Below, in pieces: positions 212-29,386 of a stretch of DNA of 34,456 bases (the stretch's first letter is position 1; each line of letters starts with the position of its first letter). The position numbers and the translations under genes were made by a program. Source of the stretch: Bacteroidia bacterium. Its GTDB lineage: Bacteria > Bacteroidota > Bacteroidia > J057 > JAIXKT01. Below the pieces are notes generated by a model. That model ran no database searches and was not told where the DNA came from. It saw only the letters and a program-made list of their open reading frames with translations. The stretch is from assembly GCA_026932145.1 (NCBI GenBank), contig JAIXKT010000051.1, forward strand, positions 1 through 34,456. The letters are read 5' to 3'.

Positions 212-892
212 ATGCTTATTAACAGTAAAATGATACGTTTTGTTTACCTGTCTCTGGGTATAATGTTGTTGTATGGATGTGGTTCTAAACCAGAGAATAC
301 CGGTGGTCAGGTGGCTTCGGCAGATACTGCCGCTAAAACTCCGGATCAGTTATTCGTTACCTGCACTGCTTGTCATGGTCAAAATGGTGGCGGTAACGAA
401 ACGATGTTCGCACCCGGAATTGTAAACCAAGATCCCGACTATTTAGTACGCCAGCTAAAAAATCTGAAAGGGGGTGTTCGCGGCGGCCATGAAAAAGATA
501 CTTACGGAAAGCAAATGGTCGGAATCGCCGCCAACTTAAAAGACAGTGAAATAGAACCTATCGTAAAGTATATCAAAACACTCCCGCCTACTACGGTTCA
601 AAAGACTGTGAAAGGAAATGTGGAAGCCGGAAAAGCTAAATATACTGCGATATGTGCCGCTTGCCATGGCCCTGACGCTGCCGGCAATAAAGCTCTATTT
701 GCTCCGAGATTAACCGGCGTAGGGGATTGGTATCTCAAAAGACAAGTGCATAACTTCATAGAAGGCATTCGCGGTGCGCACCCCCAAGACGTACAAGGTG
801 CTCAAATGGCCGCTATGGCCAAAACAATAGGCGACGACCAAGCTATTACAGATGTTGTCGCTTATATCCAGACCTTAGAAAAATCTAAGTAA
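212..892 (+). CDS. di-heme cytochrome c, c4-like, lipoprotein
   Basis: Periplasmic electron carrier with two covalently bound hemes. The N-terminus has a lipoprotein signal ending in the lipobox LLYGC, so the mature protein is probably lipid-anchored. Two similar cytochrome c domains follow, each with a CxxCH motif (CTACH near residue 51, CAACH near 149) and a candidate axial methionine further on (KQMVG, AQMAA). The duplicated layout and length match cytochrome c4-type proteins. It is the first gene of a six-gene operon; its TAA overlaps the next ATG by one base (TAATG), suggesting translational coupling. An in-frame ATG at 230 (MIRFVYLSLG) would give a more typical signal peptide and may be the real start. 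The AT-rich leader 52-211 should hold the operon promoter, but no convincing TTTG/TAnnTTTG pair is visible. Its likely role is to take electrons from the dehydrogenase encoded downstream. Confidence 0.88.
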   Translation: MLINSKMIRFVYLSLGIMLLYGCGSKPENTGGQVASADTAAKTPDQLFVTCTACHGQNGGGNETMFAPGIVNQDPDYLVRQLKNLKGGVRGGHEKDTYGKQMVGIAANLKDSEIEPIVKYIKTLPPTTVQKTVKGNVEAGKAKYTAICAACHGPDAAGNKALFAPRLTGVGDWYLKRQVHNFIEGIRGAHPQDVQGAQMAAMAKTIGDDQAITDVVAYIQTLEKSK

Positions 893-2109
893 TGGCCTCG
901 CGCTATTGCATAATAGTTTGTTTATTAATATTTTGGATAGCTTCTTGTAAAGAACCTGCCCAAAGATCGGTATCAAATTCGGTATCAAAACCATCCGAAA
1001 TAACTTTATGCAATAGCTGCCCGCCGGGCTTTGAACTCACAAAAGATAACCGCTGTTTGCTGCGAAACCAATATCAACAATATCGTTCACTCGTTACTGT
1101 AGGTGTTGGCGGATTGCAAACAGCGTTACCACAATACAGAGACGGCTTTACACCACAACAAATTGATTTAGGCCGTTATCTTTTCTTTGACCCCTTACTT
1201 TCCAAAGATAAAACATTATCTTGTGCCAGTTGCCACCATCCTGATAAAGGCTTTAGTGATGCAAAACCCCAAAGTATTGGATATAAAGGAGTTTTGCTAA
1301 GTAGGTCGGCTCCTACGATCTGGAATGTAGCTTTTTTAAAGTCATTCTTTTGGGACGGGCGCGCCAACACCTTAGAAGGGCAAATGGAAGGCCCTTTGTT
1401 TAACCCACAGGAAATGGCTAATGACCCCGAAAATTTAATCAAAACAATCAATGAAGTTCCTGATTATAAGCGATTATTCGCTGATGCTTTCCCCCAAAAA
1501 GACTCAACAAATATCTCCTTATCAGAAATTTGCACCGCAATCGCTGCCTTTGAGGCCTCCCTCGTATCCTTAAACAGCCGTTATGACCAATATGCTCATG
1601 GTTATGCAGAAGCATTAAACTCCAAAGAAATAGCCGGATTCAATGTATTTCGTTCATTTGTAGCACGTTGCTCTGAGTGTCATACACCGCCGTTATTTAC
1701 CAACCAGCAATTAGCGGTATTGGGAGTCCCTGAACCAACCGGAAAACCACTTGATATTGGAGCCGAAAAAGTATTTCACGAACCCTCCTTGCGTGCTGCC
1801 TTTAAAGTTCCTACCTTGCGGAATATTGAAAAAACAGCACCCTATATGCACTCCGGAGTCTTTAAAACCCTCAAAGAAACCGTAAAGTTCTACACAGACG
1901 GACGAGGCCACGCTGTTCCCAAAGGAGAAAACCTCAAAATCCATTGGCATATATGGGAACCAAAACTAACTGATGAGGAATTAGACCGCTTAGTAGATTT
2001 TCTCAAAACACTTACTGATGAAAGCTTTAAACCTGCTATTCCCCAAGTAGTCCCCTCCGGTATCAATATCCAAGCGTATCTAACCGCCGAAAATGGAATA
2101 ACAAAATGA
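892..2109 (+). CDS. di-heme cytochrome c peroxidase / MauG family lipoprotein
   Basis: Periplasmic di-heme enzyme of the CcpA/MauG superfamily, whose members reduce hydrogen peroxide or oxidise protein partners. A signal peptide ends in a lipobox-like IASC near residue 19. A small Cys-containing segment (CNSCPPGFEL) comes before the first heme motif CASCH (near residue 111); the second, CSECH, lies near residue 260. The family block FKVPTLRNIEKTAPYMHSG follows the second heme, and the total length of 405 residues is normal. The ATG overlaps the stop of the preceding cytochrome gene, and the end overlaps the next gene by four bases (ATGA). The sequence does not let me separate a true peroxidase from a MauG-like maturation enzyme. 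In this operon it may act on, or draw electrons from, the co-encoded cytochromes. Confidence 0.88.
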   Translation: MASRYCIIVCLLIFWIASCKEPAQRSVSNSVSKPSEITLCNSCPPGFELTKDNRCLLRNQYQQYRSLVTVGVGGLQTALPQYRDGFTPQQIDLGRYLFFDPLLSKDKTLSCASCHHPDKGFSDAKPQSIGYKGVLLSRSAPTIWNVAFLKSFFWDGRANTLEGQMEGPLFNPQEMANDPENLIKTINEVPDYKRLFADAFPQKDSTNISLSEICTAIAAFEASLVSLNSRYDQYAHGYAEALNSKEIAGFNVFRSFVARCSECHTPPLFTNQQLAVLGVPEPTGKPLDIGAEKVFHEPSLRAAFKVPTLRNIEKTAPYMHSGVFKTLKETVKFYTDGRGHAVPKGENLKIHWHIWEPKLTDEELDRLVDFLKTLTDESFKPAIPQVVPSGINIQAYLTAENGITK

Positions 2110-3602
2110 ATACAAGTAAGTCATTAAAATACATAGGTTTGCTATTTGTAGGGGTTCTTATCTACATTGCCGGAACTTTCACCTCGCGGTTATTTTTTAA
2201 TAGCCAACCGCCGCCGCCACCTGTTCCCAAATTTTTTCAAGGTACAAGCGGACGCAAGACTACTATCTCTGAAAAAATAACCGGAAAAACCTTTGATGTT
2301 AAAAGCGGGCAATCAATTATGGATGCCGTTAGAAAGGCAAATTCCGGAGACCTTATCCGTATTTACCCCGGTACTTACTACGAAACAGTTTATATTGATA
2401 AAGATAACATAACCATTCAAGGAGTTATTATAGACAATCAATGGCCAACTCTCGATGGACAAGAAAAACTAAATGATGCTTTCCTATATTCTGGTAGCAA
2501 CATAACCATTGAAAATTTTAAAATTCAAAACTATAAGGGAAATGGAATTATGGGGCAAAGCGGCAACAATTTTGTTCTTCGAAACAACTGGGTTATCAAC
2601 ACCGGTGTATATGGGATTTTCCCTGAATACGGCAAAAATGGGTTAATAGAACGAAATATTCTCACTAACATCGAAGATGCCGCCATTTATGTAGGAATGT
2701 GCGATAATATTGATGTTCGTTTTAACGAAGTCTATGCCAGCGTAGCCGGCATAGAAATAGAAAATTCAAGACACGCTTTGGTAGAATACAACAACGTTTA
2801 TGATAATACCGGCGGTATTTTGGCCTTTATTACACCTGGTTTACCCATCAAAACTTGTTACGATATTATTATTCGGAATAATTATATCGTAAATAATAAT
2901 CACAAAAACTTCGGTGCTCCCGGCTCCATTGTTTCGTTTCTACCCGTAGGCACTGGCATTATCATAATGGCCGCTGATGATGTAATTGTTGAAAACAACT
3001 TCATTTCCGGTAATGACAATATCGGCATTGCTATTGTGGATCATAAGTTTATTGCAGATATAGCCGTTGATCCGGAAAGTGAACCCAATCCAGATAGAAT
3101 CGTAATTTTAGATAACTTCATGTTTAATAACGGTAATAATCCCGTTAAAGAAGTTAAAGCGGCAATGGCAACCAAATTTTCCGCTAAAGGCCCGGATATT
3201 TTAGCTTACGGAGGTGGAACAGGCAGTTGTATCCGCGATATAAATCGTTATCGAACTTATGGGTTGGATAAATTTGCTCGCTGTGAATTAAACTCTACTG
3301 ACGAAGTACTGTCTTATATGCTTGACAAGCCGGTAGAGCCGCTGCAAATCACCCAAGAAACACGCGGAAAATTGACGTATTATGGAGTTTGCTCCGGCTG
3401 CCATGCCTACAACGTACGTATGATAGGCCCTCCGGTGCAGGCAATACAAGCGATTTACAAAGATAACCCACAAGGTATTGCAGATTATATCGCCAAACCA
3501 ATAAAAAAACGGACAGACCACCCAGAAATGCCTAAACAAGATTACCTGCCGCCAGAAACTCGGTTAGAAGTGGCTAAGTTTATGCTTACTATTACCAAGT
3601 AG
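2106..3602 (+). CDS. parallel beta-helix protein with C-terminal cytochrome c domain
   Basis: The N-terminus has one hydrophobic segment (about residues 9-31) that anchors or exports the protein. From about residue 60 to 330 there are irregular repeats rich in N, I and V (IRIYPGTYYE, ITIENFKIQNY, FVLRNNWVINT, ALVEYNNVYDN, VIVENNFISGN). These are typical of right-handed parallel beta-helix proteins of the NosD/pectate-lyase type. A linker follows, and then one heme motif, CSGCH, near residue 431, with a candidate axial Met in HPEMPKQ. The last 75 residues therefore form a mono-heme cytochrome c domain. The ATG overlaps the previous stop (ATGA), and the TAG shares one base with the GTG of the next gene. 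Beta-helix domains often bind polysaccharides, so substrate binding next to an electron acceptor is possible, but this is inference. The fusion is unusual. Confidence 0.85.
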   Translation: MNTSKSLKYIGLLFVGVLIYIAGTFTSRLFFNSQPPPPPVPKFFQGTSGRKTTISEKITGKTFDVKSGQSIMDAVRKANSGDLIRIYPGTYYETVYIDKDNITIQGVIIDNQWPTLDGQEKLNDAFLYSGSNITIENFKIQNYKGNGIMGQSGNNFVLRNNWVINTGVYGIFPEYGKNGLIERNILTNIEDAAIYVGMCDNIDVRFNEVYASVAGIEIENSRHALVEYNNVYDNTGGILAFITPGLPIKTCYDIIIRNNYIVNNNHKNFGAPGSIVSFLPVGTGIIIMAADDVIVENNFISGNDNIGIAIVDHKFIADIAVDPESEPNPDRIVILDNFMFNNGNNPVKEVKAAMATKFSAKGPDILAYGGGTGSCIRDINRYRTYGLDKFARCELNSTDEVLSYMLDKPVEPLQITQETRGKLTYYGVCSGCHAYNVRMIGPPVQAIQAIYKDNPQGIADYIAKPIKKRTDHPEMPKQDYLPPETRLEVAKFMLTITK

Positions 3603-4639
3603 TGAAACCGGAGCAATTTGATACTATTCCGCGTATTGGTTGGGCTACTTTGGCAACGCCTATTACTGAATTACCGCAAATTGCGCAACAATTTGGTGCA
3701 ACTTGGATGGGCTGTAAGCGAGATGACCTCTGTTCTGGATTACTTGGAGGCTCAAAAGTGCGGAAGTTAGACTTTTTGTTAGCAGATTCCCATTTTCAAA
3801 ACGCATCTTCATGGGCATCTATTGGGGCAATCGGATCAGGCCATTTGGTAGCCTGCGCTGCCGCTGCTCATATCCTCCAAAGAAAATTTCAAGCCCATTG
3901 CTTCTTTGAACCTACCTCTGAGGAAATTTTAAAAAACCTCGCATTCATAGCTGAACACACTGAAAAAATACATTTCTATCGCTCTCGTATGGAAGTCTTA
4001 CTGACAAGGCCGGCAGTATTTTTTCGCAAAACAGTCCAAAACTGTAGCTTTATTCCGCCGGGGGGTAGCTCTGCATTGGGAATAGTAGGTATGGTTCGAG
4101 CAGGCGTAGAATTGGCAGCACAAATCCAAGCAGGGATGATACCTGTACCAGATAGGATTTATGTAGCCGCCGGAACCTGTGGAACTGTAGCCGGATTAGC
4201 CGTAGGATTAGCCGTAGCCGGATTCCAAATACCCATAAAAGCAATAGCTACCGTAGAAAAAATAATTGTATCTACATGGAGAATAAACTTCTTGATTAAC
4301 CAAGTTTGTAAATTATTACTGTCTTTTGGCTTTCAGGAAGTAAAAAAAATAAAAAATATCCCAATTGTGATTGATTATAAACAACTTGGAAAGGGATACG
4401 CCTACCCTACCGAAGCAGCAAATATGGCCGTAAAAATCTTTGACTCAGCAGAGATTTCTTTAGAACCGGTTTATACCGGAAAAATGGCCGCGGCAATATT
4501 ACACGATTTAAAAAATGGCTTTAATGGTAAAGTTTTATTTTGGAACTCCCACAGAAGAAACTTGCCTCCAACAAAGAGCGATTGGAAAAATAAACTCCCA
4601 GTAAGACTACAAAAACTATTAGTATTGCCTCTCAAATGA
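3602..4639 (+). CDS. PLP-dependent enzyme, ACC deaminase / D-cysteine desulfhydrase-like, divergent
   Basis: Predicted cytoplasmic fold-type II PLP enzyme of 345 residues, the usual length for the ACC deaminase/D-cysteine desulfhydrase family. The block GCKRDDLCSGLLGGSKVRKL (about residues 37-56) carries the PLP-lysine motif; relatives have KREDL...GGNKVRKLE. The glycine-rich phosphate loop is AAGTCGTVAGL near residue 190. The catalytic block usually read as QSNH is changed to GSGH (AIGSGHLVACAAA), so the activity may differ from both named enzymes. The start is GTG, in a TAGTG overlap with the preceding stop; no Shine-Dalgarno sequence is seen, which fits translational coupling. It has no signal peptide although its neighbours are exported redox proteins, so its place in the operon is unexplained. 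The superfamily is secure; the substrate is unknown. Confidence 0.75.
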   Translation: MKPEQFDTIPRIGWATLATPITELPQIAQQFGATWMGCKRDDLCSGLLGGSKVRKLDFLLADSHFQNASSWASIGAIGSGHLVACAAAAHILQRKFQAHCFFEPTSEEILKNLAFIAEHTEKIHFYRSRMEVLLTRPAVFFRKTVQNCSFIPPGGSSALGIVGMVRAGVELAAQIQAGMIPVPDRIYVAAGTCGTVAGLAVGLAVAGFQIPIKAIATVEKIIVSTWRINFLINQVCKLLLSFGFQEVKKIKNIPIVIDYKQLGKGYAYPTEAANMAVKIFDSAEISLEPVYTGKMAAAILHDLKNGFNGKVLFWNSHRRNLPPTKSDWKNKLPVRLQKLLVLPLK

Positions 4640-4646
4640 TTGTGCT

Positions 4647-5219
4647 ATGTCCAAAATATCCAGACGTAAATTCTTTTTTATCGGAATGGCTGCATTATCA
4701 GCTATTCCGATTCCTTTTATATTAACGAGAATTTACAATTATCCCAAAATTAACTCATGGGATGGCAAAATTCTTTCCCATAGGCACGCCTCCATATTAT
4801 TTCTTGCAGCCCAAGAGTTTATCCCCGAAAAAAGTGAAATTGTATATCAAAATATCACCGGAAATATAGATTCTTTTTTGTCTAAACTACCGGAAACTAT
4901 GGTTAGTCAGGTTCGAGATGCCGTTGAAGCATTTGAAAATATGACTTTTTTGACCCCAAGCCTCAATTCTTTTTCACAAATGGCAAGCCCAGCTCGCCAA
5001 GAATACCTTGAGCGGATGTTTGGTTTAGGCGGTATTTTTCGTTTGGTTGCCAAAACCATACGGGACTTATGCTTGTTTGGGTATTACCAACAAGATAGTT
5101 CTTGGGCTTCTATACGCTACTTAGGTCCGATGGTAGCTGAAAGTCGCTCAGTTTCAGAGCAGTATCTAACTTTGGTAGCTTCTTCTGGAGATATTCCTAA
5201 GTCATTAATGACAGAATAG
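4647..5219 (+). CDS. Tat-exported gluconate 2-dehydrogenase subunit 3-like protein
   Basis: Small partner subunit of a periplasmic flavin dehydrogenase. The N-terminus is a twin-arginine signal (SRRKFFFIGMAALSAIPIPF), so the folded protein is exported through Tat, perhaps together with the signal-less flavoprotein that follows. The mature part is helical and resembles the gluconate dehydrogenase gamma/subunit-3 family, with the run FGYYQQDSSWASIRYLGPM near the C-terminus. The 190-residue length is usual. The gene ends two bases before the ATG of the GMC oxidoreductase gene, the standard arrangement for this pair. In characterised relatives the third component is a multi-heme cytochrome c; here the di-heme cytochrome gene at the head of the operon could fill that role (inference). 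Confidence 0.75.
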   Translation: MSKISRRKFFFIGMAALSAIPIPFILTRIYNYPKINSWDGKILSHRHASILFLAAQEFIPEKSEIVYQNITGNIDSFLSKLPETMVSQVRDAVEAFENMTFLTPSLNSFSQMASPARQEYLERMFGLGGIFRLVAKTIRDLCLFGYYQQDSSWASIRYLGPMVAESRSVSEQYLTLVASSGDIPKSLMTE

Positions 5220-5221
5220 TT

Positions 5222-6784
5222 ATGATTTTTGATAGCAGACATTTTAAGTTTCCACTTCGGTTGCGGGCAGATTTATGCGTTATTGGTTCCGGTGCTGGCG
5301 GCAGTATGGCGGCTATGGTAGCCGCAGAAGCAGGTATGCGCGTAGTGGTGTTAGAACCCGGTAGCTTCATGACTCCCGACAAAATGAACCAACGCGAAGA
5401 CACAATGCTCCCAAAACTACTGTGGGAAGCCGGCGGACGAACTAATACCGATAGAAATATCCATATTTATCAAGGAAAAGGGGTGGGCGGTTCTACCCTG
5501 CACAATCTTAACCTCATCAAACGTATCCCTACAGAAATATTACAACACTGGATACAAAACAGAAAGTTAAATCATTTACCACTAAGTGCTTGGGATTCTT
5601 TGTATGCTGAAGTAGAATCATTATTGAGTGTTTCAGGTATTACACCAGAAATGATGAATCAACATAACAGGATATTTCAGCAAGGAATACAACAGTTAGG
5701 TTGGAAAGGGGGCTTGATGAAACATAACCGTACCGGCTGCGTAGGGAGCGGCTTTTGTGAACTTGGCTGCGCTTATGATGCCAAAAACAATGCCAGCAAA
5801 GTCCTTATTCCCAGACTCATAAAAGCAAATGGTGAGGTTTTTACACACTGCTTAGCTACCCAAATTTCGCACCAAAACGGAATTGTGGACGGCGTGAAAG
5901 CCGTTGTCATGGACCCAGAAAATTACCGCATTTTAGGAGAAGTAATCGTTCAGGCTAATCAGGTCTGTTTAAGTGCCTCAGCTACTGCCTCTGCCGCTAT
6001 TATTTTACGTTCAACTATTCCTTATCCAGAAGGAACTGTGGGTCAAACACTTAGGATTCATCCGGCTACATTGGTTGCCGGAGAGTTTGATGTTCCCATA
6101 CGAGCTTGGGAGGGAATACCACAATCATTTGAATGCACCGAATTTTTGAATTTTGAGCAAGCAATAGCTCAAGAAAAGAGCGGTAAGCCTGCTTCATCGG
6201 CAGAAAAAGCAAATCGTCTTTGGCTAATACCGGCATTTGCACATCCTGTGGGAACAGCTACTTTTTTGCCCGGGTACGGAAAAGAACATCAAACTACGAT
6301 GGAACGATATGAAAATATTGCCGTCATAACCTCAGTACTTCACGAACACTCTACTGGAACTATCAAAAATACCGGAAAAACAGAATTTCAAATTGATTAT
6401 CAGCTAATTCCGGAAGATAAGCAAGAGTTAGTGAAAGGCTTGCAGGCAAGTGCTGAAATTCTTTTTGCCGCCGGAGCTAAAAAAGTAATGATTCCAACGT
6501 ACCCACGTCTTGAGCTACTTACGAAAAACGATATTCAGAAAATATCCATCGAAAATACCTTAGAGAATGGCTTAGAATTAGCTGCCGTTCATCCGATGGG
6601 ATCAATTCCTATGGGAGATGACTCTGTTACAGCAGCCGTGGACTCATCAGGACGTTTTCGGCACATAAAAGGTCTTTGGATCGCCGATGGCTCTCTTTTT
6701 CCAACCTCCATTGGAGTACCTCCCCAGCTGTCTATTTATGCAATGGGACTACATATAGGGAAAAATATCGCAACAAATACATAG
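5222..6784 (+). CDS. GMC-family FAD-dependent oxidoreductase (flavoprotein subunit)
   Basis: FAD-containing alcohol or sugar dehydrogenase of the glucose-methanol-choline family, 520 residues. The ADP-binding Rossmann motif CVIGSGAGGSMAAMVAAEAG starts near residue 19 and ends in a strand with an acidic residue (VVVLEPG). A second FAD contact block is GKGVGGSTLHNLN near residue 90. The C-terminal catalytic region has HPMGSIPMG and then ADGSLFPTSIGVPPQLS. The Asn or His usually found after the PTS(x)GV stretch appears as Pro here. The protein has no signal peptide of its own, so export by hitchhiking on the Tat-tagged partner encoded two bases upstream is likely. It is the last gene of the operon. 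Electrons from its substrate would pass to the co-encoded cytochromes. The substrate cannot be named. Confidence 0.88.
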   Translation: MIFDSRHFKFPLRLRADLCVIGSGAGGSMAAMVAAEAGMRVVVLEPGSFMTPDKMNQREDTMLPKLLWEAGGRTNTDRNIHIYQGKGVGGSTLHNLNLIKRIPTEILQHWIQNRKLNHLPLSAWDSLYAEVESLLSVSGITPEMMNQHNRIFQQGIQQLGWKGGLMKHNRTGCVGSGFCELGCAYDAKNNASKVLIPRLIKANGEVFTHCLATQISHQNGIVDGVKAVVMDPENYRILGEVIVQANQVCLSASATASAAIILRSTIPYPEGTVGQTLRIHPATLVAGEFDVPIRAWEGIPQSFECTEFLNFEQAIAQEKSGKPASSAEKANRLWLIPAFAHPVGTATFLPGYGKEHQTTMERYENIAVITSVLHEHSTGTIKNTGKTEFQIDYQLIPEDKQELVKGLQASAEILFAAGAKKVMIPTYPRLELLTKNDIQKISIENTLENGLELAAVHPMGSIPMGDDSVTAAVDSSGRFRHIKGLWIADGSLFPTSIGVPPQLSIYAMGLHIGKNIATNT

Positions 6785-6840
6785 CGTAACCTAAAATCCG
6801 TGAATAATATTTCACTATTACTTAAAAGCAAAAAAACAAC

Positions 6841-6857
6841 TAATTGATAATCAATTA
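6841..6857. promoter_or_regulatory. 17-bp dyad in the leader of the tail-specific protease gene
   Basis: TAATTGAT-A-ATCAATTA is a perfect dyad with 8-bp arms and a one-base centre. It lies about 75 bp upstream of the predicted promoter of the protease gene and 57 bp after the GMC gene. The centre is too short for an RNA hairpin loop, so a site for a dimeric DNA-binding protein is more likely. AT-rich spacers produce such dyads by chance quite often. Confidence 0.25.
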
Positions 6858-6932
6858 CGATGTATAGTTTAATACTGATTTTCCCTAAAAAAAGAATTAT
6901 CAAAACTTTATGAAGAATTAGAACCTTTTTAA

Positions 6933-6940
6933 TAGCTTTG
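6933..6940 (+). promoter_or_regulatory. predicted -7 element for the tail-specific protease gene
   Basis: TAGCTTTG is an exact match to the Bacteroidota -7 consensus TAnnTTTG. It lies 24 bp before the ATG at 6965, so the leader would be only about 18 nt. A weak -33 match (TTTA at 6907-6910, spacing 22) lies upstream. Confidence 0.45.
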
Positions 6941-6964
6941 CGTAGTTAAGAAAAAGTTTAGCCG

Positions 6965-9040
6965 ATGAGACGAATTGCGCCAAGAAGCGTATATTATTTA
7001 TCTTTTGTGATAGGGCTGTTTTGCCTCTCGCAAGTGTATGCACAAAGCCAAGACACAATTGCTCAAGCAAGTTCTCCCCTTTCTCCTGAGCCTAAACATT
7101 CAGTTGCTTGCAGAGAATCTATCAAAGCATTACAACTATATCATTGGAAAAAGCCGGAGTTAAACGATTCCCTTTCTTCACAAGTCTTTGATGCTTACCT
7201 AAAACGAATAGACCCCAACAAAATATACTTTACCAAACAAGATGTAGATGAATTTCAGGTATTTCGATATGCCCTTGATAATGATTTATCTACCGGAGAC
7301 CTAAGTAAGGTGTTCATCATTTACAATAAATTTCGCATCAGAATTAACGAACGAATAGATTTAGCCCTCAAGCTAACTCCCAAAAATTATGATTACACTA
7401 CTGATGAAATATATGAATACGACCGCAGCGAGTCTCCGTGGCTAATTGAACCGGAAATACAAAAGTTGTGGGAGAAAAAAATAAAATATGAACTATTAGA
7501 AGTTCGCTTAGATAGCAGCGGCAGCGTAAAAACAGTCGAAAACAGATATAAAAATCTGCGTAAAAATTTATACAAACAGAAAGCCGACAATGTATTCGAG
7601 TTTTTTATGAATAGTTTCACCGAAACAATAGAGCCACATACAAACTATTTTTCACCGCGTTCTGCTGACGACTTTAATATCTCCATGAGCCAGTCATTAG
7701 AAGGTATTGGTTGCACATTACGTCAAGATAATGACTACATCCAAATAACCGATATTGTGAAAGGCGGGCCTGCCAGCCGTAGCAGACAAATCCAGATTAA
7801 TGACAAAATCTTAGCTGTTGCCCAAGGAGATGACGGAGAATTTGTAGATGTAGTAGGCTGGACGACCTCGGAAGCCGTTATCCTCATCCGAGGCCCCAAA
7901 GGAACTATCGTCCGCCTAAAAATGTTCTCGGCTGCAAACAACAAAAGCTATCAAGTTCGCTTAGTAAGAGATAAAATTATCTTAGAAGAACAATCAGCCA
8001 AAAGCTCCATCCTTGAAACAAAACAAAACAATACGAAACATAAAATCGGAGTCATCACCTTACCCACTTTTTATATGGATTGGGAAGGAATGCAAAAAGG
8101 AGAAAAAAACTACAAAAGCACAACACGAGACGTTCGCCGGCTGATAGAAGATCTCAAAAAAGAAAAAATAGAAGGCTTAGTCATTGACCTACGGAATAAC
8201 GGAGGAGGCTCATTAGTGGAAGCCATTGATTTATCCGGTTTATTCATCAAAGAAGGGCCGGTCGTTCAGGTTAAAGAAGCCAGCGGACTTTTGCAGGTGC
8301 ATCGAGATAATGACCCCGAAATCACTTGGAATGGACCACTTGTGGTGCTTATCAACCGTTTTAGCGCATCTGCCTCCGAAATATTTGCCGCCTGCTTGCA
8401 AGACTATAACAGAGGAATTATCGTAGGAGAAAATTCTTTTGGAAAAGGAACAGTCCAGAATATGCTGGATCTAAATAAGCTACTCCCATTTGAAAGCGAT
8501 AAATTAGGACAATTAAAAATCACTTTTGCAAAATTTTATAGAGTTACCGGCAGCAGCACCCAACACAAAGGCGTAATCCCTGATATAAGTTTCCCAACAA
8601 TTTTTTCTGCCGAAGAATTTGGGGAAAGTTCATACCCAACTGCCCTACCCTGGGACCAAATTCAGCCTACGCTATTTTCTGTACTTCCTGATATTACCGA
8701 ACTGCGTCAGCATCTTTTAGATATACACTTAAAAAGAGTTTTGAACGAAAGAGAATATAAATACCTAACCGAAGATGTAAATGCCATTAAGAAGAAACGG
8801 GAGCAAAAATATGTTTCTCTCAATGAAGCACAATTACGCAAAGAGCATCAGCAAGAAGATGAAAAGAACTGGCTTCGAACGAACGAAAGACGTGCCGCCG
8901 CCGGATTAAAACTACTGAAAGCCGGAGAGCAACCCGGAAAAGACGATAAAGCACCGGATTTTATTTTGCAAGAAAGTGGAAATATCTTGGTAGATATGGC
9001 CACCATGATGCACGAAAACCCAAAAGCAATGCGGCCTTAA
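6965..9040 (+). CDS. prc: tail-specific (C-terminal processing) protease, S41 family
   Basis: Periplasmic serine protease that degrades or trims proteins from their C-terminus. A signal peptide ends near VYAQ (residues 1-27). An N-terminal TSP-type helical domain covers about 40-240, a PDZ domain about 245-330 (LEGIGCTLRQDNDYIQITDI), and the S41 core about 350-560. The catalytic dyad fits Ser469 in RFSASASE and Lys494 in SFGKGTVQ, with the usual 25-residue spacing. A C-terminal helical extension of the DUF3340 type completes the 691 residues, a normal length for Prc-type rather than short CtpA-type proteases. The gene is monocistronic. Its TAA is followed with no gap by the stop of the convergent aroC gene. 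Confidence 0.92.
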   Translation: MRRIAPRSVYYLSFVIGLFCLSQVYAQSQDTIAQASSPLSPEPKHSVACRESIKALQLYHWKKPELNDSLSSQVFDAYLKRIDPNKIYFTKQDVDEFQVFRYALDNDLSTGDLSKVFIIYNKFRIRINERIDLALKLTPKNYDYTTDEIYEYDRSESPWLIEPEIQKLWEKKIKYELLEVRLDSSGSVKTVENRYKNLRKNLYKQKADNVFEFFMNSFTETIEPHTNYFSPRSADDFNISMSQSLEGIGCTLRQDNDYIQITDIVKGGPASRSRQIQINDKILAVAQGDDGEFVDVVGWTTSEAVILIRGPKGTIVRLKMFSAANNKSYQVRLVRDKIILEEQSAKSSILETKQNNTKHKIGVITLPTFYMDWEGMQKGEKNYKSTTRDVRRLIEDLKKEKIEGLVIDLRNNGGGSLVEAIDLSGLFIKEGPVVQVKEASGLLQVHRDNDPEITWNGPLVVLINRFSASASEIFAACLQDYNRGIIVGENSFGKGTVQNMLDLNKLLPFESDKLGQLKITFAKFYRVTGSSTQHKGVIPDISFPTIFSAEEFGESSYPTALPWDQIQPTLFSVLPDITELRQHLLDIHLKRVLNEREYKYLTEDVNAIKKKREQKYVSLNEAQLRKEHQQEDEKNWLRTNERRAAAGLKLLKAGEQPGKDDKAPDFILQESGNILVDMATMMHENPKAMRP

Positions 9041-10264: not shown

Positions 10265-12646
10265 TTAAATTGTTAGTGAACTTCTTTGGATAATTTCGTC
10301 TTTCATTTCTGGAGAAAGATCATTAAAATAGGCAGAGTATCCTGAAACGCGAACAATCAGCCAAGGATATTTTTGTGGATTTAGTTTAGCGTCTTTGAGC
10401 ATTTCGGTATCCAAAACATTTAGCTGAACCTGCATTCCGCCGTTATTGAAGTACGTTAGCAGTAGTGCTTTTAGGATTTCTTTTCCGTGTTCTCCTTTTA
10501 GGGTTGCGGTGTCAAATTTAGCATTTACGTTTGCGCCGTTATGGGCACGTTCAAAGTCTATGCTATTAATAGAGTTAAAAAATGCAGTGGGTCCTTTTTT
10601 ATCCATGCCGTTTGTTGGGGCAATTCCGGAAGTAAAGGGAGTGCCTTTAAGGCGGCCATTAGCTGTCGCGCCAGTATATAAGCCAAAACTGTAATGCGTT
10701 GTAGTAGAATAAAATCCGGCTACAAATTTCCCTCCCCGAGTATTTATCAAGCCTTCAAAAGAATCATAAAAGGTATCAGCTACCCATTTGCTATAAGCAT
10801 CAGCTTCAGGATTGTCATTGCCAAATTTCGGGATAGCTAACATCAAGTTGCGAAGTTTTTCTTGGTCTTTGAAATTATTGGATAATGCATTAACGATTTC
10901 TGTAAGTGTATATTTTTGGGTTTTAAAAACCAATTCATTGATAATAAATAGGCTATCTGCTGCATCCGTAACGCCAACACCTTGTACACCACTGAAATTA
11001 TAGGTTGCGCCTCCTGCCGTTACATCTGTCCCTTTTTCCATACAGCCTTGAATGAGTGCAGAAGTTAGCGGCGTAGGATGAAAATCTCGATTAGCAAACT
11101 CTATGGGTTCTAATACTTTATGTAATTTCTTGATAATGTAGTATAGTTGCTGTTTAAAGGCATTTTTAACATCTTCGATGTTTTTAAAAGTAGAAATTGG
11201 TGGTGTTTTGCAGCCACTTAGTTTAGATTTTCCAAAGAGTTTTCCCTCATTTAAAGCCATCTCAAGGCATATTGGGATGTTTACCAAAGCAGCATCGGTA
11301 GAACCAAAGGTTTTTCCGGCAGCACAAAGCTCTACACAACCTAAGGTTGAATATTCTCTTGCATCATTTTGGGACATTCCACACATTTGTAAAGACTTGA
11401 TAATCAAATCATCATTATAGACAGCCGGAGAATTTACTCCTTTGACTAAATTTGACATGATTTTTTCAAGGTATTGTTGCGGAGGGTTTTGGGAGATTCT
11501 GGCATGATAATTAGGTTGGCGCATTCTAATTTCATCCATCAGTTCTAAGAACAGATATGACAATTCATTGGTTACGTCCTGCCCGTTTTGGTTTATTCCT
11601 CCGATAGTGAGGGCTTGCCCGCTCAAAAAGCCGCCATGGCTTTTGGATATTTTGGTGCTAAAAACAGGAATAATTTCAGCTGTTTTGATAACAAAACAGC
11701 CAATTAGTTCTTTGGCTTTTTCTCTGTCAATTTTTTCGGCAGCGATGTCTCTTTCATAAAATGGGTTTAGATACTGGTCCATACGTCCCAAGCTGATTCC
11801 GTTATCTAAGCCTTCCAGCGTAATCGCGGTGTGAAGAATCCAAATTGATTGTAAGGCTTCATGTAGGGTTCGTGCAGGGTTTGCTGGTACGTGGGCCAAG
11901 ATTTCTGCTATTTGCAATAATTCTTGTTTGCGCTCAAAGTCGGGTTCTGTTTCAGCTAAGGTTCTTACTTCGGCGGCATAATTATCAGCCATTTTCAATA
12001 CACCTTTGCAAATAGTTATTACTGCTTGATAAAATCCTTGCCGTTTGTCGTCTTGGGCTAAAGTTGCAATAGCGGCTTCTGCCTGCGCTATGATTGGGTT
12101 TAACCCTTGGTTGATAAGCCCTTCATAATCCGGTATTAAGTGCCCGATTCCGCCAGTTTCATTAATCAGGTAAAATTTAGGATTCAATTGGTCTAACACA
12201 AAGTCAAAAAGTTCCTTTCCGGAAAAAGCCTTGTATGCCAAAAACTTATTCAACCAAAAAGGAGCTACATCTTTGATTAATTTAAAGATTTCACCGGTAG
12301 AAATTTGCAAGGGATTTAATTTTCTGGAAGAAAAATTGAATAAGTCTTCCATGACCGGTAGGCCGTGTAGTTCCGGATAGAGAGGCCCTGCTACACGTTT
12401 TGAAGTGGTGCTGCCTACAATAAGCTCGTTGGGATATATCTGTACCTTCTTGTGAATCAGCAAATAAGCCAAAGCCTCTGCTTTTTGAACGATAACTGGC
12501 TTATTTTTACTTTTAGCCATTTTGAAATATTCAGTTATCAAAACAGCCCGCTCGATACAAACAGAATAGGGACTGGAAGTTACAGCCTCTTTCAATTTGT
12601 TTAGCCTTGCAATAGCGTTTACGGAAACGGTAGTTGGTGTGTTCAT
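10265..12646 (-). CDS. glycyl radical enzyme of the GCVE (dehydratase/eliminase) type
   Basis: Oxygen-sensitive radical enzyme of the pyruvate formate-lyase superfamily, 793 residues. The active-site loop reads STLGCVELCAAGK, with thiyl Cys437 and general-base Glu439. The Cys-x-Glu pair marks the eliminating branch, which includes glycerol, propanediol and trans-4-hydroxyproline dehydratases and choline TMA-lyase; PFL itself has two adjacent Cys. The glycyl radical loop RVSGYSAYF puts the radical at Gly769. The PFL-type N-terminal domain and the 332-residue Cys-to-Gly spacing are normal. The residues after the active-site Cys (SIDE-chain context TFGSTDAAL) differ from the GWHDAAFFN pattern of better known members, so the substrate is unassigned. 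The activase gene lies 18 bp upstream in the same operon. No microcompartment shell genes or proC are nearby. Confidence 0.9.
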   Translation of the reverse strand: MNTPTTVSVNAIARLNKLKEAVTSSPYSVCIERAVLITEYFKMAKSKNKPVIVQKAEALAYLLIHKKVQIYPNELIVGSTTSKRVAGPLYPELHGLPVMEDLFNFSSRKLNPLQISTGEIFKLIKDVAPFWLNKFLAYKAFSGKELFDFVLDQLNPKFYLINETGGIGHLIPDYEGLINQGLNPIIAQAEAAIATLAQDDKRQGFYQAVITICKGVLKMADNYAAEVRTLAETEPDFERKQELLQIAEILAHVPANPARTLHEALQSIWILHTAITLEGLDNGISLGRMDQYLNPFYERDIAAEKIDREKAKELIGCFVIKTAEIIPVFSTKISKSHGGFLSGQALTIGGINQNGQDVTNELSYLFLELMDEIRMRQPNYHARISQNPPQQYLEKIMSNLVKGVNSPAVYNDDLIIKSLQMCGMSQNDAREYSTLGCVELCAAGKTFGSTDAALVNIPICLEMALNEGKLFGKSKLSGCKTPPISTFKNIEDVKNAFKQQLYYIIKKLHKVLEPIEFANRDFHPTPLTSALIQGCMEKGTDVTAGGATYNFSGVQGVGVTDAADSLFIINELVFKTQKYTLTEIVNALSNNFKDQEKLRNLMLAIPKFGNDNPEADAYSKWVADTFYDSFEGLINTRGGKFVAGFYSTTTHYSFGLYTGATANGRLKGTPFTSGIAPTNGMDKKGPTAFFNSINSIDFERAHNGANVNAKFDTATLKGEHGKEILKALLLTYFNNGGMQVQLNVLDTEMLKDAKLNPQKYPWLIVRVSGYSAYFNDLSPEMKDEIIQRSSLTI

Positions 12647-12664
12647 AATCTTTGGCAGTCAAAA

Positions 12665-13561
12665 TTAACGAAAACAAATGGTTTTTATCTCCTGGGATTC
12701 AAAAAAATCTCTAAATTGTTGAATTTCATTAACTGTAAAGGGTTGAAATCCAAGTTTTGGTAAAGAGCTGTTTATTTTTTCGGCTTTGCTTTCTCCCATA
12801 CTATGGTACGGAAGTAAGTGTAATTCAGTTATGTTATTTTTTTGTAAAATAGTTAAAATATCATTTAGGTTTTCTGGATTGGCCGTATATTGCGGAATCA
12901 GCGGTAATCGAAATTTAACAGGAGCTTTCGCCTGAACTAAATTAGTTATATTTTGTAGAATTTTATCATTGGTTGCAGATAAATGTTGCTTGTGCTGAAC
13001 TGAATTGACAATTTTAATATCAAAATAAATTAAGTCAAGCATAGGTAAAATTTTTTGAAATTTTTCCCATGAAAAATAACCATTGGTTTCGATATTGGTA
13101 TGAATTTGGTGTTCTTTACAGCGGATTAGGAGTTCGTAGATAAAGTCTATGTGCAGGGTTGGTTCGCCACCGGAAAAAGTTATTCCGCCGCCAGAGGTAT
13201 CATAATAACTTTTATCTCTCAAGATTTCTTGCATCACAGAATCTATACTATACTCTTTACCAACGACTTTCACACCTTCGGTAACGCAACTTACGGTGCA
13301 ATTGTAGCAGGTGCTGCAAATATTCCTGTCTATAATTAACGTCCCTTCGTAGGATAGAGCTTGTTTTGGGCAGCTTTTCACACAATCTTGACTTCCGATG
13401 CAATTAGCCGGATAATATGCAAGTTCGGGCTTATGAGATATAGACTCAGGGTTTTGGCACCAAGGGCATTCTAAGTTACAGCCTTTAAAAAAGATGGTTG
13501 TTCGGATGCCCGGACCGTCATGGATAGAAAAACGCTGAATATCAAAAATTAAAGGTCGCAT
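12665..13561 (-). CDS. glycyl radical enzyme activating enzyme (radical SAM)
   Basis: Uses SAM and a [4Fe-4S] cluster to abstract a hydrogen from the glycine of its partner enzyme. The N-terminal block FSIHDGPGIRTTIFFKGC leads into the radical SAM motif CNLECPWC (CxxxCxxC, about residues 29-36). A ferredoxin-like insertion follows. It holds one cluster motif with only three clear Cys (CIGSQDCVKSCP) and a second full motif (CSTCYNCTVSC). GGGITFSGGEPTLH is the SAM-binding GGE region. The insertion is typical of activases of the GCVE-type enzymes and absent from PFL activase. It is the first gene of a two-gene operon, 18 bp before the glycyl radical enzyme gene, which fixes its target. Length 298 is normal. 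Confidence 0.93.
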   Translation of the reverse strand: MRPLIFDIQRFSIHDGPGIRTTIFFKGCNLECPWCQNPESISHKPELAYYPANCIGSQDCVKSCPKQALSYEGTLIIDRNICSTCYNCTVSCVTEGVKVVGKEYSIDSVMQEILRDKSYYDTSGGGITFSGGEPTLHIDFIYELLIRCKEHQIHTNIETNGYFSWEKFQKILPMLDLIYFDIKIVNSVQHKQHLSATNDKILQNITNLVQAKAPVKFRLPLIPQYTANPENLNDILTILQKNNITELHLLPYHSMGESKAEKINSSLPKLGFQPFTVNEIQQFRDFFESQEIKTICFR

Positions 13562-23774: not shown

Positions 23775-24344
23775 TTAACTGCCGGATTTTTGAAGTGTTT
23801 GGATATATAAAATAATTTCCCAACGTTCTTCCGGCGTTAATTGTGAAGCATGAGACCCCATCAAGTTTTTACCATACTGCAAAGTGTGGAACATTTTTCC
23901 TTCTGGAAGCTCTTTTAATGGGCCGTTGTAAGCTGGAGGTGGCGGGAATTTTCCGGCAGCGGGAACAGTTCCATCTCCTCCACCAGTTTTTCCATGACAA
24001 TGGACGCAATAATGACCATACAAACGCTTACCTTCTGCAACGTTTTCAGGAGTGTTGGGTAAAGGATTTTTTAATTCTTTACCTGCTGCCTCATAGCCGT
24101 CAAAGTTATTTGGATAAGGGTAAGCATAACTTTCTTTTCCGCGAGCTACCGTGTGCTCTACTGGAGTTTGTGCATTCTTACCGTCAGAAAAGTTTTTGTT
24201 GTCTGCCAACTGTGTATATGGCTCAACGGGTATAGCATGATACATCTGTGGAGCATATTCCCAGCCGGTATCATTTCCATCGTAACCACAGCCACTTAGA
24301 AATGCAATTAAGATACTAAAAACTGCTAAATATTGTGTTTTCAT
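23775..24344 (-). CDS. actE: alternative complex III subunit ActE (mono-heme cytochrome c lipoprotein)
   Basis: Periplasmic mono-heme cytochrome c subunit of alternative complex III, thought to pass electrons from the complex to its acceptor. The signal peptide ends with the lipobox LSGC (FLSGCGYDG), so the protein is lipid-anchored. The heme motif CVHCH lies about residue 113, with a candidate axial Met in KNLMGSHASQL. I start at the ATG at 24344 (MKTQYLAVF), two bases after the actD stop; the open frame reaches a TTG at 24353, which would overlap actD. Length 189 is normal. Confidence 0.92.
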   Translation of the reverse strand: MKTQYLAVFSILIAFLSGCGYDGNDTGWEYAPQMYHAIPVEPYTQLADNKNFSDGKNAQTPVEHTVARGKESYAYPYPNNFDGYEAAGKELKNPLPNTPENVAEGKRLYGHYCVHCHGKTGGGDGTVPAAGKFPPPPAYNGPLKELPEGKMFHTLQYGKNLMGSHASQLTPEERWEIILYIQTLQKSGS

Positions 24345-24346
24345 TA

Positions 24347-24883
24347 TTACCAATCAAGTTTACTAATCCCTAACTCTTTTTCATTTACTTCAACAGCACC
24401 GGTATCATTGAAAGCTTGTTTTACAAGGCTATCTTTTTCTCCTTCGGTAGCTTCTACAACTATCACAAAGCGGTCATCTGTTTGTCTTTCATGTGCCAAA
24501 CTTACTGACTGGCCCGGAAATAGTTTATTAACTACCAAATAAACTGCAACCATTCCCAATGAAGCGATTAGAACTGTAAGCTCAAATGTTATTGGGATAA
24601 AACTTGGGAAAGCATAATTTGGTTTTCCGCCTACATCCATTGGCCAATCAAATCCCAGCATATAGGACTGCATACCTATAGCTGATAAGCCCCCAAGCGC
24701 ACCAAAACAGAAAGCTGCGATAGGCAAGCGTGAACGCTTTATGCCTAACAAATCATCTATGCCGTGAATCGGAAAGGGTGTGTACACTTCAAAAATTTCA
24801 ATACCCCGATTCTTGATATTGCGTACAGCAGACAACATTACCTCGTCATCTGAATATACACCAACTAAATATTTCTTAGACAT
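24347..24883 (-). CDS. actD: alternative complex III subunit ActD (DUF3341)
   Basis: Small membrane subunit of alternative complex III with no cofactor. It starts with a soluble domain (KKYLVGVYSDDEVMLSAVRN, then VYTPFPIHGIDDLLGI) and has two transmembrane segments (about 58-78 and 95-120), the standard DUF3341 layout. Length 178 is normal. It lies four bases after actC and two bases before the actE ATG, within the conserved gene order A-B-C-D-E-F. Confidence 0.93.
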   Translation of the reverse strand: MSKKYLVGVYSDDEVMLSAVRNIKNRGIEIFEVYTPFPIHGIDDLLGIKRSRLPIAAFCFGALGGLSAIGMQSYMLGFDWPMDVGGKPNYAFPSFIPITFELTVLIASLGMVAVYLVVNKLFPGQSVSLAHERQTDDRFVIVVEATEGEKDSLVKQAFNDTGAVEVNEKELGISKLDW

Positions 24884-24887
24884 TTTC

Positions 24888-26321
24888 TTAATGATGATTG
24901 GAATGAACAGTAGCTAAATTATCACCTACAACACCTGACTCAATAGCTTCTTTTTCTTGGCGGCGTTGCGGAGAATCAGATGCAGATTTTTGAATTGATT
25001 TTACCTCTGCCATAGCAATTACCGGTAAAAATCTCGCAAATAATAGATACAATGTTAAAAATATACCGAATGTCCCGATAAATACACTGATTTCAACCCA
25101 AGTCGGGCTGTACATCGCCCAACTTGAAGGAAGATAATCTCTGTGTAATGAAGTAACGATAATCACAAAACGCTCAAACCACATCCCAACATTTACAAAT
25201 ATTGAAATAATGAAGATTATTAACGGATTGGTTCGTATTTTTTTGAACCAAAACAATTGTGGGGTAACTACGTTACAGGTAAGCATAGACCAATATGCCC
25301 ACCAATATGGGCCAAAGGCTCTGTTTTTAAAGCAGAATACTTCGTATGGATTTCCAGAATACCAAGCAATAAAGAACTCCGTTCCATAAGCTAAACCAAC
25401 CATAGAACCGGTTAGAATAATCACCTTACACATTGCCTCTAAGTGGCTAATTGTAATATAATCTTCTAATTTAAGGACAACCCTGGTTACAATCATCAAT
25501 GTAAGCACCATTCCGAAGCCTGAAAATATAGCTCCTGCAACGAAATACGGTGGAAAAATAGTGGTGTGCCAGCCGGGTATTACTGAAGTAGCGAAGTCAA
25601 AACTAACTATCGTGTGAACAGAGAGTACCAAAGGAGTGGCCATACCGGCTAAAATCAAGCAAAGTACTTCAAAACGAGACCATGCTTTTGCTGAACCTGT
25701 CCAACCCATTGATAATGCTCCGTAGATAGCTTTTGTCATTTTTGACTTAGCACGATCCCGTATCGTTGCTAAATCAGGAATTAAACCTATGTACCAGAAT
25801 ACTAACGAAACTGTAAAATATGTACTAATCGCGAATACGTCCCAAAGTAGTGGAGAGTTAAAGTTCACCCACAAAGATCCGTGTACGTTTGGAATTGGAA
25901 ATACCCAGAACATCAACCATGGCCGCCCCATATGAAGCAGTGGAAATAGCCCTGCGCAAACAACCGCGAAAATAGTCATAGCTTCAGCCGCACGGTTGAT
26001 AGATGTCCGCCACTTCTGGCGAAAGAGTAGTAAAATAGCAGAAATAAGTGTCCCCGCGTGGCCAATACCAATCCAAAAAACGAAATTGGTAATATCCCAT
26101 GCCCAACCAACGGTTTTGTTTAGCCCCCATGCTCCAATTCCTTTGAACAAAGTAACTGTTATGGCGACAATTCCTAGTATGGCTGCTAAGCTAGAAACAG
26201 TAATAGCTCCGAACCAAGCCATAGGCGTTTTGCCTAAAATCGGGCGAACCACATCATCGGAAATATCTGTATAAGATTTTCCTCCGGTTACTAATGGCTC
26301 TCGTATTGGTGATTCAATCAT
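24888..26321 (-). CDS. actC: alternative complex III subunit ActC (NrfD-like)
   Basis: Polytopic membrane subunit of the NrfD/PsrC family that carries the menaquinol-binding site of alternative complex III. About ten transmembrane segments are visible across residues 35-440. Typical blocks are [20 protein letters not shown] in the second helix region and [14 protein letters not shown]. Length 477 is normal. It starts 20 bp after the actB stop and ends four bases before actD, inside one operon. Confidence 0.94.
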
Positions 26322-26341
26322 ATTTTGTTCTGTTGTTTTGT

Positions 26342-29341
26342 TTAAGATTTAGTTTGTTCATCTTTATTACGTACTTTAACTAAGTAGCTTACGTGCGGTT
26401 TCGTTTTGACTTCTTCTAACAAGCGGTAAGCGCGGTCGGACTTGTATAGTTTAGCTATTTGGCTATCCGGATCATTCAAATCGCCGAATACTATTGCGCC
26501 AGAGGGGCAGGAGGCTGAGCAAGCTGTTTGTAGCTGCCCGTCCGGTAAAGGTTTGCCGGAAACCTTAGCGGCTATCTTGGCAGCCTGAATCCGCTGTACA
26601 CAAAATGAGCATTTTTCCATTGTACCGCGAGAACGAACCGTAACATCTGGATTAAGTACCATTCTACCCAAATCATCTACCGGATTATACTGGAAGTTAT
26701 TCACGTTGGTATAATCTAACCAATTGAAACGGCGCACTTTATAAGCGCAGTTGTTCGCACAATATCTCGTACCTACACAACGATTATATACTTGCTGGTT
26801 TAATCCGTCAATACTGTGAACGGTAGCAAGGACTGGACAAACTGTTTCACAAGAAGCATTATCACAATGCTGGCACATTAATGGCTGGAACACTACTTCC
26901 GGCATTTCGGAGGCATCAATGATATTTTCTTTTTCGCTGGAATAATAGCGGTCTATTCTCATCCAGTGCATTTCACGGCGAACAAGCACTTCTTCTTTGC
27001 CAACGACCGGTATGTTATTTTCAGCTTGGCAACTTACGACACAAGCTCCGCATCCGGTGCAAGCGTTTAAGTCAATAGCCATTGCCCAATAGTGGCCGTT
27101 TTTATCATGTTCTGCCCAAAGAGAAACTAAGTCAAATTTTTCATGATTAGCAGCTTGGGGGTCTTTTACATATTCAGATAGAATGGTTTCTTTAACGATT
27201 GGGCGGTTATATTGTGTTGGTTGTGTTTGTGCTAATGCTAATTTATAGCCGGATCCAACTTTGGTGGCTTTAGTAACTTTTGCCCAAGGTTGCCAGTTTC
27301 CATTCAGTATTCCTGTAAGTGTAGCGGCATTTTTTCCGATTCCCAATGCAGCTTTTGGAGCTTTAGTGCGTCCGTATCCCAAGGCTATGCCGAAAGTTCC
27401 TCGGGTTTGGCCGGGTTGGATAATCACCGGTAAATCTATAGATTTACCGCCTTCAACCTCTAACTTCATGATGTCTCCTTGTTCAACTTTCAGTGTTTTA
27501 GCATCTTCGCGGTTCACTGTTATGTAGTTATCCCAAGTTGCTTTCGTTATGGGGTCAGGTAGTTCTTGCAGCCAAGGGTTCCCGGCCATTTCACCGGTTC
27601 CTATACCTACTTTTTGGTAAACCATTAACTCCATAGCTGCACCGCTTGTCTGGGTAACCTCCTGAATGGCAGCAGATAACCCTTTATCGCTGAATTTAAC
27701 CGTTGAAGCCTCAGCCGGAAGTTCTAAAATACCTTCATGAAGTGTGTGTGTCCAAAAAGTCGGGAATGCCGCAGTAGAACCAGTTTTAGGGAATATTGTG
27801 TTTTTCCAATAATCTGCTAAGAAAAGATAAGGATCCCGTGTATCTCCCAACCAAGATAGTAAGTTTTGCTGGAATTGCCGCGTATTAAACAAATGGTTAA
27901 TTGTTGGCTGCTGAATACTAAAACTATTGTGGAATGGCTCTGCATCTCCCCAAGATTCTAAGTAGTTATTATCAGGAAGTACGTATTGGCAAACATCGGA
28001 TGTTTCATCAATATGGCTGGAGAAAGAAACGGATAACTTTAATTTTCCAATAGCATTTTTGATGGTTTCTCCATTGGGGTGGGAATATACCGGATTGCAG
28101 TTGTAAAGTAGCAATCCTTCTACAGAACCGGCATTAATTTCTTCTATTAATTTAGCCATTTCCGAATCTTTTCCTTGTCGTAGGTTTGAAGGGCGGCTAA
28201 AATCTATTGTTGTGCCGACATTTCCAAGTAGGTTATTGATGGTATTCACCAATATTTGAACTCCTACTTGGTTTGATCCGGAAACTACAATTCCGTTTCC
28301 TTTATTTGCCCAGAGGTCTTGCGCAGCTTTTGAAACCAGATTTCCGGCAGCATCCATACCGCCTTCTGCACCGGCCTGCCCAGCTAACTTGGCAATTTCA
28401 TTATACAGTTTTAAAACGTATTTACCTTCATCACTTGGCTTCATCGGAGCCCGATAATCAGCGTTAGATCCTGTTAATGAAAGGTTTGTTTCAAACTGAT
28501 AATGACGAGACATTTCTTTTTGGCCATTTACCAAAGAACGGTTTTTAACCCATTGTTTAGTAAATGTGGTTGGTGTTAGCCAAGTTCCCAAAAAGTCTGC
28601 ATTAAATCCGACTATAATTTTAGCCTTATCAAAGCGATAGTGAGGTAATACTGCCTTATCAAAGCATTGTTGGTTAGCTTCTAAAATAGCAGAAGAAGAA
28701 TATGAGTCGTAAGTAATATGACGAACTTTAAACTTTTCTGCAAAAGTCTGTATTAATGAGCGAGTTGAGGGGCTTAAAATAGAATGACTCAGTAATACTA
28801 TCTTTCCTGATAGTTCGCCGAGTTTTGTTTTTATTTGGTTATCAACATCTTCCCATTTTGTTTCTGTTTTATTGGCTATTGGGCCTTTTAATCGTGCATT
28901 ATCATATAAGCTCAACACGGAGGCGTGTGCGCGTGTACTTACGCCGCCCTCAGAGATAGGGGAAGTTGAGTTTCCTTCAATTTTGATTGGGCGGCCTTCA
29001 CGGGTTTTTACTAAAATACTGTTATATTCTGATCCGTCATAAAATGTTGAAGCATAGTAATTTGGGACACCCGGCATCAGATCATTGGGCTTTACGATGT
29101 AGGGTAAAGCGTATCTAACTGGGGTTTTTTCACAAGCGGCCAAGGTAGCTGCGGTGATACCAAATCCCAAATATTTTAGAAAATCCCGCCGATTGCTGTT
29201 TAGACCTAATGAGGAGTCATCAAAGATCTCCTCAACGGGGATATCTTTATTATTTTCCGGCTGATTTTCTGTAGAAGGGTTAATAACTCCCTCTAAATCA
29301 GTAAAATCCGTAAAACAAATTTTATTATTTTTATCTTCCAT
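26342..29341 (-). CDS. actB: alternative complex III subunit ActB (molybdopterin-like plus iron-sulfur)
   Basis: Large periplasmic subunit of alternative complex III, 999 residues. A Tat-type signal lies after a 50-residue leader ([20 protein letters not shown]). Residues of about 80-740 resemble the molybdopterin oxidoreductase fold, which carries no molybdenum cofactor in characterised ActB. The C-terminal 250 residues hold the ferredoxin-like domain with four cluster motifs: [35 protein letters not shown] and CSFCVQRI...CSASC. In the known complex these bind three [4Fe-4S] and one [3Fe-4S] cluster. This fused form joins what are separate subunits in PSR-type enzymes. It starts 45 bp after actA, preceded by a weak TCTCC-containing stretch. 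Confidence 0.95.
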
Positions 29342-29386
29342 GGAGATTTAATTATGAGTTAATTTTTTACGAAAAGTCAATATTTC

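Follow-up and report, generated by a model that had tools for sequence, protein, structure and literature searches.

Two separable redox modules adjoin in a six-gene locus of a Bacteroidota genome

Introduction

Do six closely packed genes at the start of a Bacteroidota contig make up one oxidation system, or do they belong to two? The window analyzed here is the entire contig, 34,456 bp long. An initial annotation had read its first six genes as one six-part module: a gluconate-type dehydrogenase made of a flavoprotein, a small Tat-tagged protein and a cytochrome, extended by a peroxidase-like di-heme protein, a possibly carbohydrate-binding cytochrome, and a pyridoxal phosphate (PLP) enzyme. 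We compared the locus with related loci and with the closest known systems.

Results

The locus contains the following features, with modules A and B denoting its two halves.

212..892, plus strand: c4-type di-heme cytochrome c, likely a lipoprotein, with two Cytochrom_C stretches (module A)
892..2109, plus strand: MauG-type di-heme enzyme, CCP_MauG E 2e-54 (module A)
2106..3602, plus strand: bhc, a parallel beta-helix with a C-terminal mono-heme cytochrome c, TIGR03805 197 bits (module A)
3602..4639, plus strand: fold-type II PLP enzyme of the D-cysteine desulfhydrase/CuyA superfamily, PALP E 6e-17 (module B)
4647..5219, plus strand: Tat-tagged small protein, subunit-3-like, with an SRRKFF motif (module B)
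5222..6784, plus strand: GMC flavoprotein with GMC_N/GMC_C and CX5CX3C (module B)
4680..4711, plus strand: perfect hairpin of 13 bp in the Tat-signal-encoding 5' part of the small-protein gene, with a folding z of -3.8

The annotated layout of six plus-strand genes with small gaps and overlaps was confirmed in the sequence. The junctions read TAATG between the c4 and MauG-type genes, ATGA between the MauG-type gene and bhc, and TAGTG between bhc and the PLP gene; gaps of 7 bp (PLP/small protein) and 2 bp (small protein/GMC) follow. This tight packing is our one reason to infer that the six genes are co-transcribed. Promoter-like and terminator-like sites were no more frequent at the locus than in shuffled sequences, and the hairpin at 4680-4711 could uncouple expression of the small-protein and GMC genes from that of the genes before them. 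The contig starts only 211 bp 5' of the first gene, and additional upstream genes are possible; the next downstream gene lies at 6965, 180 bp beyond the set. Five of the six genes passed Pfam cut-offs (Cytochrom_C twice, CCP_MauG, Beta_helix, PALP, and GMC_N/C), bearing out the annotated identities of these five, while the small protein matched no Pfam or NCBIfam family.

A search with bhc returned a first relative in genome G311, where the gene for a 61%-identical protein has a 64%-identical MauG-type gene immediately upstream. A profile of MauG-type protein plus bhc was then run against 395 genomes of the class and 120 genomes of the family of G311 and detected additional strong relatives. 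The module A loci comprise 20 further neighborhoods and L085 (21 in all), with bhc relatives 58-67% identical. In all 20 other Bacteroidia loci that have the upstream side on the contig, a MauG-type gene stands directly upstream of bhc on the same strand. Gaps between the two genes range from -50 to 45 bp across module A loci, and a c4-type cytochrome gene precedes the MauG-type gene in 12 of those 20 loci, often with a 4-bp overlap. In another class of the phylum (genome G426, locus L086, 7686-9980), the MauG-type and beta-helix proteins form one 764-residue frame devoid of the C-terminal heme. Within 7 kb of the module A relatives, as far as contig ends permitted, we found no gene for a PLP enzyme, the small protein, or a matching GMC protein.

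The heme-binding motifs of module A are well kept. The residues C51/C54/H55/M102 and C148/C151/H152/M199 of the c4-type protein are invariant among 15 aligned sequences. The match of bhc to TIGR03805 (197 bits) exceeds the cut-off of 141.5; its C-terminal cytochrome domain falls under the Pfam cut-off (18.5 bits), and its CXXCH is kept in all relatives with the exception of the MauG-fused one. Like the known pairs of a TIGR03805 beta-helix with an SO2930-type di-heme protein (TIGR03806), module A combines such a beta-helix with a c-type heme partner; unlike in those pairs, the beta-helix protein has a heme of its own and the partner is MauG-type. Both kinds of pair lie side by side in L136. 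Carbohydrate binding, which had been proposed for the beta-helix protein, found no support. Distances in the MauG-type and bhc trees correlated (r 0.83), with just 5 of 18 splits shared and no species tree included, and we make no claim of co-evolution. A CsgG-like/caspase-domain protein pair is conserved beside MauG-bhc in one family (L131, 5234-8844; also L129 and L132).

Genome searches that used the GMC or PLP protein as query turned up one close relative of module B, at locus L034 of genome G047 (MAG nzgw115, JAHEXY010000001.1). Its rarity rests mainly on these genome searches; a contig scan of genomes, which used two peptide patterns only, returned one locus, and a viral-contig scan returned no relative. 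In L034, a single 544-residue frame covers both PLP enzyme and small protein. Its junction contains no in-frame ATG, GTG, or TTG, and the twin-arginine motif is retained within the fusion. The gene for a 56%-identical GMC protein follows directly after the stop of this frame (L034/L042).

Thus, module A occurs without module B in all 20 other loci, and module B occurs without module A in L034. The six genes are two separable modules, A (c4-MauG-bhc) and B (PLP-small protein-GMC), and not one six-part system. The initial annotation had named a gene order found only here as grounds to refute it; the genome searches with these two module B proteins, GMC and PLP, found the full order nowhere else.

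The GMC flavoprotein scored above the GMC_oxred_N/C cut-offs and has a GxGxxG motif at 22-27. The spacing of C173, C179, and C183 (CX5CX3C) equals that of the 3Fe-4S ligands Cys212/218/222 of Burkholderia cepacia glucose dehydrogenase, BcGDH (PMC6719666), which suggests that the protein carries a putative 3Fe-4S cluster. This cysteine spacing, the Tat-tagged small protein, and the c-type cytochromes uphold the annotated gluconate/glucose-type flavoprotein arrangement with a MauG-like enzyme. BcGDH uses a His/Asn catalytic pair (PMC6719666). The catalytic His is kept as H457, and its partner Asn is replaced by Pro500. Only the flavoproteins of the window and L034 have Pro at this position, which is occupied by Asn or Asp in all other GMC proteins aligned. 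Since the flavoproteins of both module B loci carry this change, their activity as dehydrogenases is uncertain. A structure model of the GMC protein from a two-row alignment was too poor in quality for use. GMC relatives at about 30% identity come from a different type of cluster, one that includes an AttH/CrtC-like lipocalin. This second recurrent cluster (small protein, GMC, and lipocalin) was seen at L035 (9044-12005; same genome, C1), L036, L037, L038, and L150, and a related arrangement lies 5' of module B in L034 (7584-10832).

The small protein contains the twin-arginine motif SRRKFF, and its gene stands directly before the GMC gene. It is weakly similar to proteins encoded just 5' of other GMC genes, and these proteins in turn match PF13618 only at scores under the cut-off. 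Gene position, motif, and these weak intermediates led us to call it subunit-3-like. Its fold model (two-row alignment) reached a pLDDT of 53, too poor to judge, and a Foldseek search matched nothing. A profile search against the PDB gave ribosomal matches only, which we rejected as implausible.

Module B resembles the DET-type FAD dehydrogenases (B. cepacia glucose dehydrogenase, gluconate-type) in its GMC protein without a signal peptide and with CX5CX3C, and in having a gene for a Tat-tagged small protein immediately 5' of the GMC gene; c-type cytochromes are likewise present in the operon. It differs from them in the Pro in place of the catalytic Asn and in the small protein, which stays under the family thresholds. 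In addition, the di-heme c4 and the beta-helix cytochrome replace the three-heme subunit, and a PLP enzyme and a MauG-type enzyme are added. No gene for a three-heme membrane cytochrome subunit was found in 212-9040, on a contig that begins 211 bp upstream of the first gene.

In the MauG-type protein, Y334, W154, and E174, at the places of the Tyr ligand, bridging Trp, and distal Glu of MauG, are invariant among 22 aligned MauG-type sequences. Y334 aligned with the position of the methionine in the classical bacterial peroxidase 3o5c that we take to be its heme ligand. The annotated description as a peroxidase-like di-heme protein therefore held for the CCP_MauG domain and failed for the ligand, which is a Tyr as in MauG and not the Met of classical peroxidases. 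Tyr ligation sets MauG and BthA apart from classical bacterial peroxidases (PMC6405878). With these proteins and MbnH, the window protein shares the CCP_MauG domain, two CXXCH motifs, the Tyr at the sixth-ligand position, and the conserved Trp and Glu. The nearest NCBIfam models were MbnH and MauG, both scoring under their cut-offs (188.9 vs 443.9 bits for the MauG model, TIGR03791); on this basis, the protein appears to be MauG-like rather than a MauG orthologue. Further unlike in these systems, no mau or methanobactin genes were seen, and the strict partner is the beta-helix cytochrome. Among the window genes scanned by family search, none encoded an amine dehydrogenase.

The PLP protein shares with D-cysteine desulfhydrase, ACC deaminase, and CuyA the fold-type II PALP domain with its PLP lysine. 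It differs from them in its linkage, or fusion, to a small protein of Tat type and in reaching no equivalog cut-off; all scores were far under, with CuyA the best (133 bits vs a cut-off of 450). Both copies retain K52, Y291, and most glycines of the phosphate loop. Two active-site motifs are changed, GGNK to GGSK and SNH to SGH, so that Ser and Gly replace the Asn residues of relatives. No close PLP relative was found outside this gene context in 395 genomes of the phylum, and relatives at about 30% identity have no GMC or small-protein gene in their 1.5-kb flanks.

Gene neighborhoods of the relatives vary between groups. One group of module A relatives adjoins FadJ, an SDR, a carotenoid-isomerase-like flavoprotein, a second beta-helix, and a thiolase (the last assigned by eye); in one case, a TIGR03806 cytochrome accompanies the second beta-helix. 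Flavobacteria-type module A loci have an aldehyde dehydrogenase as a neighbor, together with a LytTR-like regulator and SusC/SusD-like proteins (by eye from sequence). In L034, a tocopherol-cyclase-like protein and another GMC protein are encoded 5' of module B, and a cholesterol-oxidase-like GMC protein, an FAD-linked oxidase, and a GlpD-like gene lie 3' of it. These neighbors of module A relatives and of the L034 module weakly favor lipid-like alcohols over sugars as substrates. Nitrous-oxide reductase operons were ruled out as an identity of the relatives' clusters, the neighbors of about 710 residues being FadJ and not NosZ; nos-like genes stand beside module B in L034 only (by eye from proteins). 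The window also encodes a glycyl radical enzyme and its activase at 10265-13561, and homologues are encoded directly downstream of c4-MauG-bhc in L139, L141, and L144.

Discussion

What, then, does the joined locus do? The operon most likely links the oxidation of an alcohol in the periplasm to c-type cytochromes. Module B would represent a variant form of Tat-exported FAD dehydrogenase, and its GMC flavoprotein, which has no signal peptide, probably rides out on the Tat-tagged small protein. Two electrons from an alcohol, probably a hydrophobic one, would reduce the FAD and move on through the 3Fe-4S cluster, and the c4-type cytochrome and the beta-helix-bound heme would accept them and feed the respiratory chain. 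Genes resembling Alternative complex III (ActD, NrfD, molybdopterin/FeS, and a multiheme cytochrome) are present at 23775-30703 of the window, and this complex is a possible acceptor. The MauG-type enzyme may perform a peroxide-dependent or high-potential oxidation with the beta-helix protein as its natural partner. The PLP enzyme may work from the cytoplasm; the PLP-small protein fusion in L034 suggests that it could be anchored to the foot of the complex. Pro500, the small protein without a family match, and the missing three-heme subunit speak against this reading, and conservation does not support the coupling of A to B, since the joined arrangement was seen in one genome only. Overall, we consider the chances evenly balanced that the locus is an operon joining two independently existing redox modules, with B oxidizing an alcohol and A supplying the cytochromes.

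Alternatively, the modules could be mere neighbors in one transcript, A being an independent heme module and B serving another pathway, with no electron flow between them. Their separate occurrence and the single instance of the joined order are what such neighbors would leave. However, the TAGTG overlap spans the module boundary, and flavoproteins of this type depend on a c-type acceptor, of which module B encodes none. We regard the neighbor explanation as rather unlikely.

Within the joined operon, the MauG-type enzyme could act as a maturase that uses peroxide to modify Tyr or Trp residues of bhc or the GMC protein to a protein-derived cofactor, a sub-hypothesis compatible with coupled modules. 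Tyr ligation and an acid-base Glu are described in PMC6405878, and the invariant Tyr, Trp, and Glu, as in MauG, the strict pairing and occasional fusion with the beta-helix protein, and MbnH and MauG as the nearest models, albeit below cut-off, all fit such a role. BthA has Tyr ligation too, yet it acts as a peroxidase (PMC6405878), and we consider maturation unlikely.

The divergence of the PLP protein, its two replaced Asn residues, its fusion to the small protein in L034, and its confinement to this context among the phylum genomes searched would also suit a role in scaffolding or maturing the GMC-small protein complex rather than that of an enzyme acting alone. The conserved K52, Y291, and phosphate-loop glycines argue against this role, which we find decidedly improbable. 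Equally far-fetched is a membrane-spanning, two-sided enzyme in which the cytoplasmic PLP domain is tethered through an uncleaved internal Tat anchor to the periplasmic FAD/3Fe-4S flavoprotein (Pro for Asn) and wired to the MauG/beta-helix heme module.

The c4-MauG-bhc set recurs in several Bacteroidia families, and in the literature searched we found no published description of it. With it, the unexplained TIGR03805 beta-helix family gains a strict, sometimes fused, heme-enzyme partner. The exchange of Asn for Pro poses a testable question on GMC catalysis, and the PLP-Tat fusion would link a cytoplasmic cofactor enzyme with a periplasmic dehydrogenase, an unusual connection.
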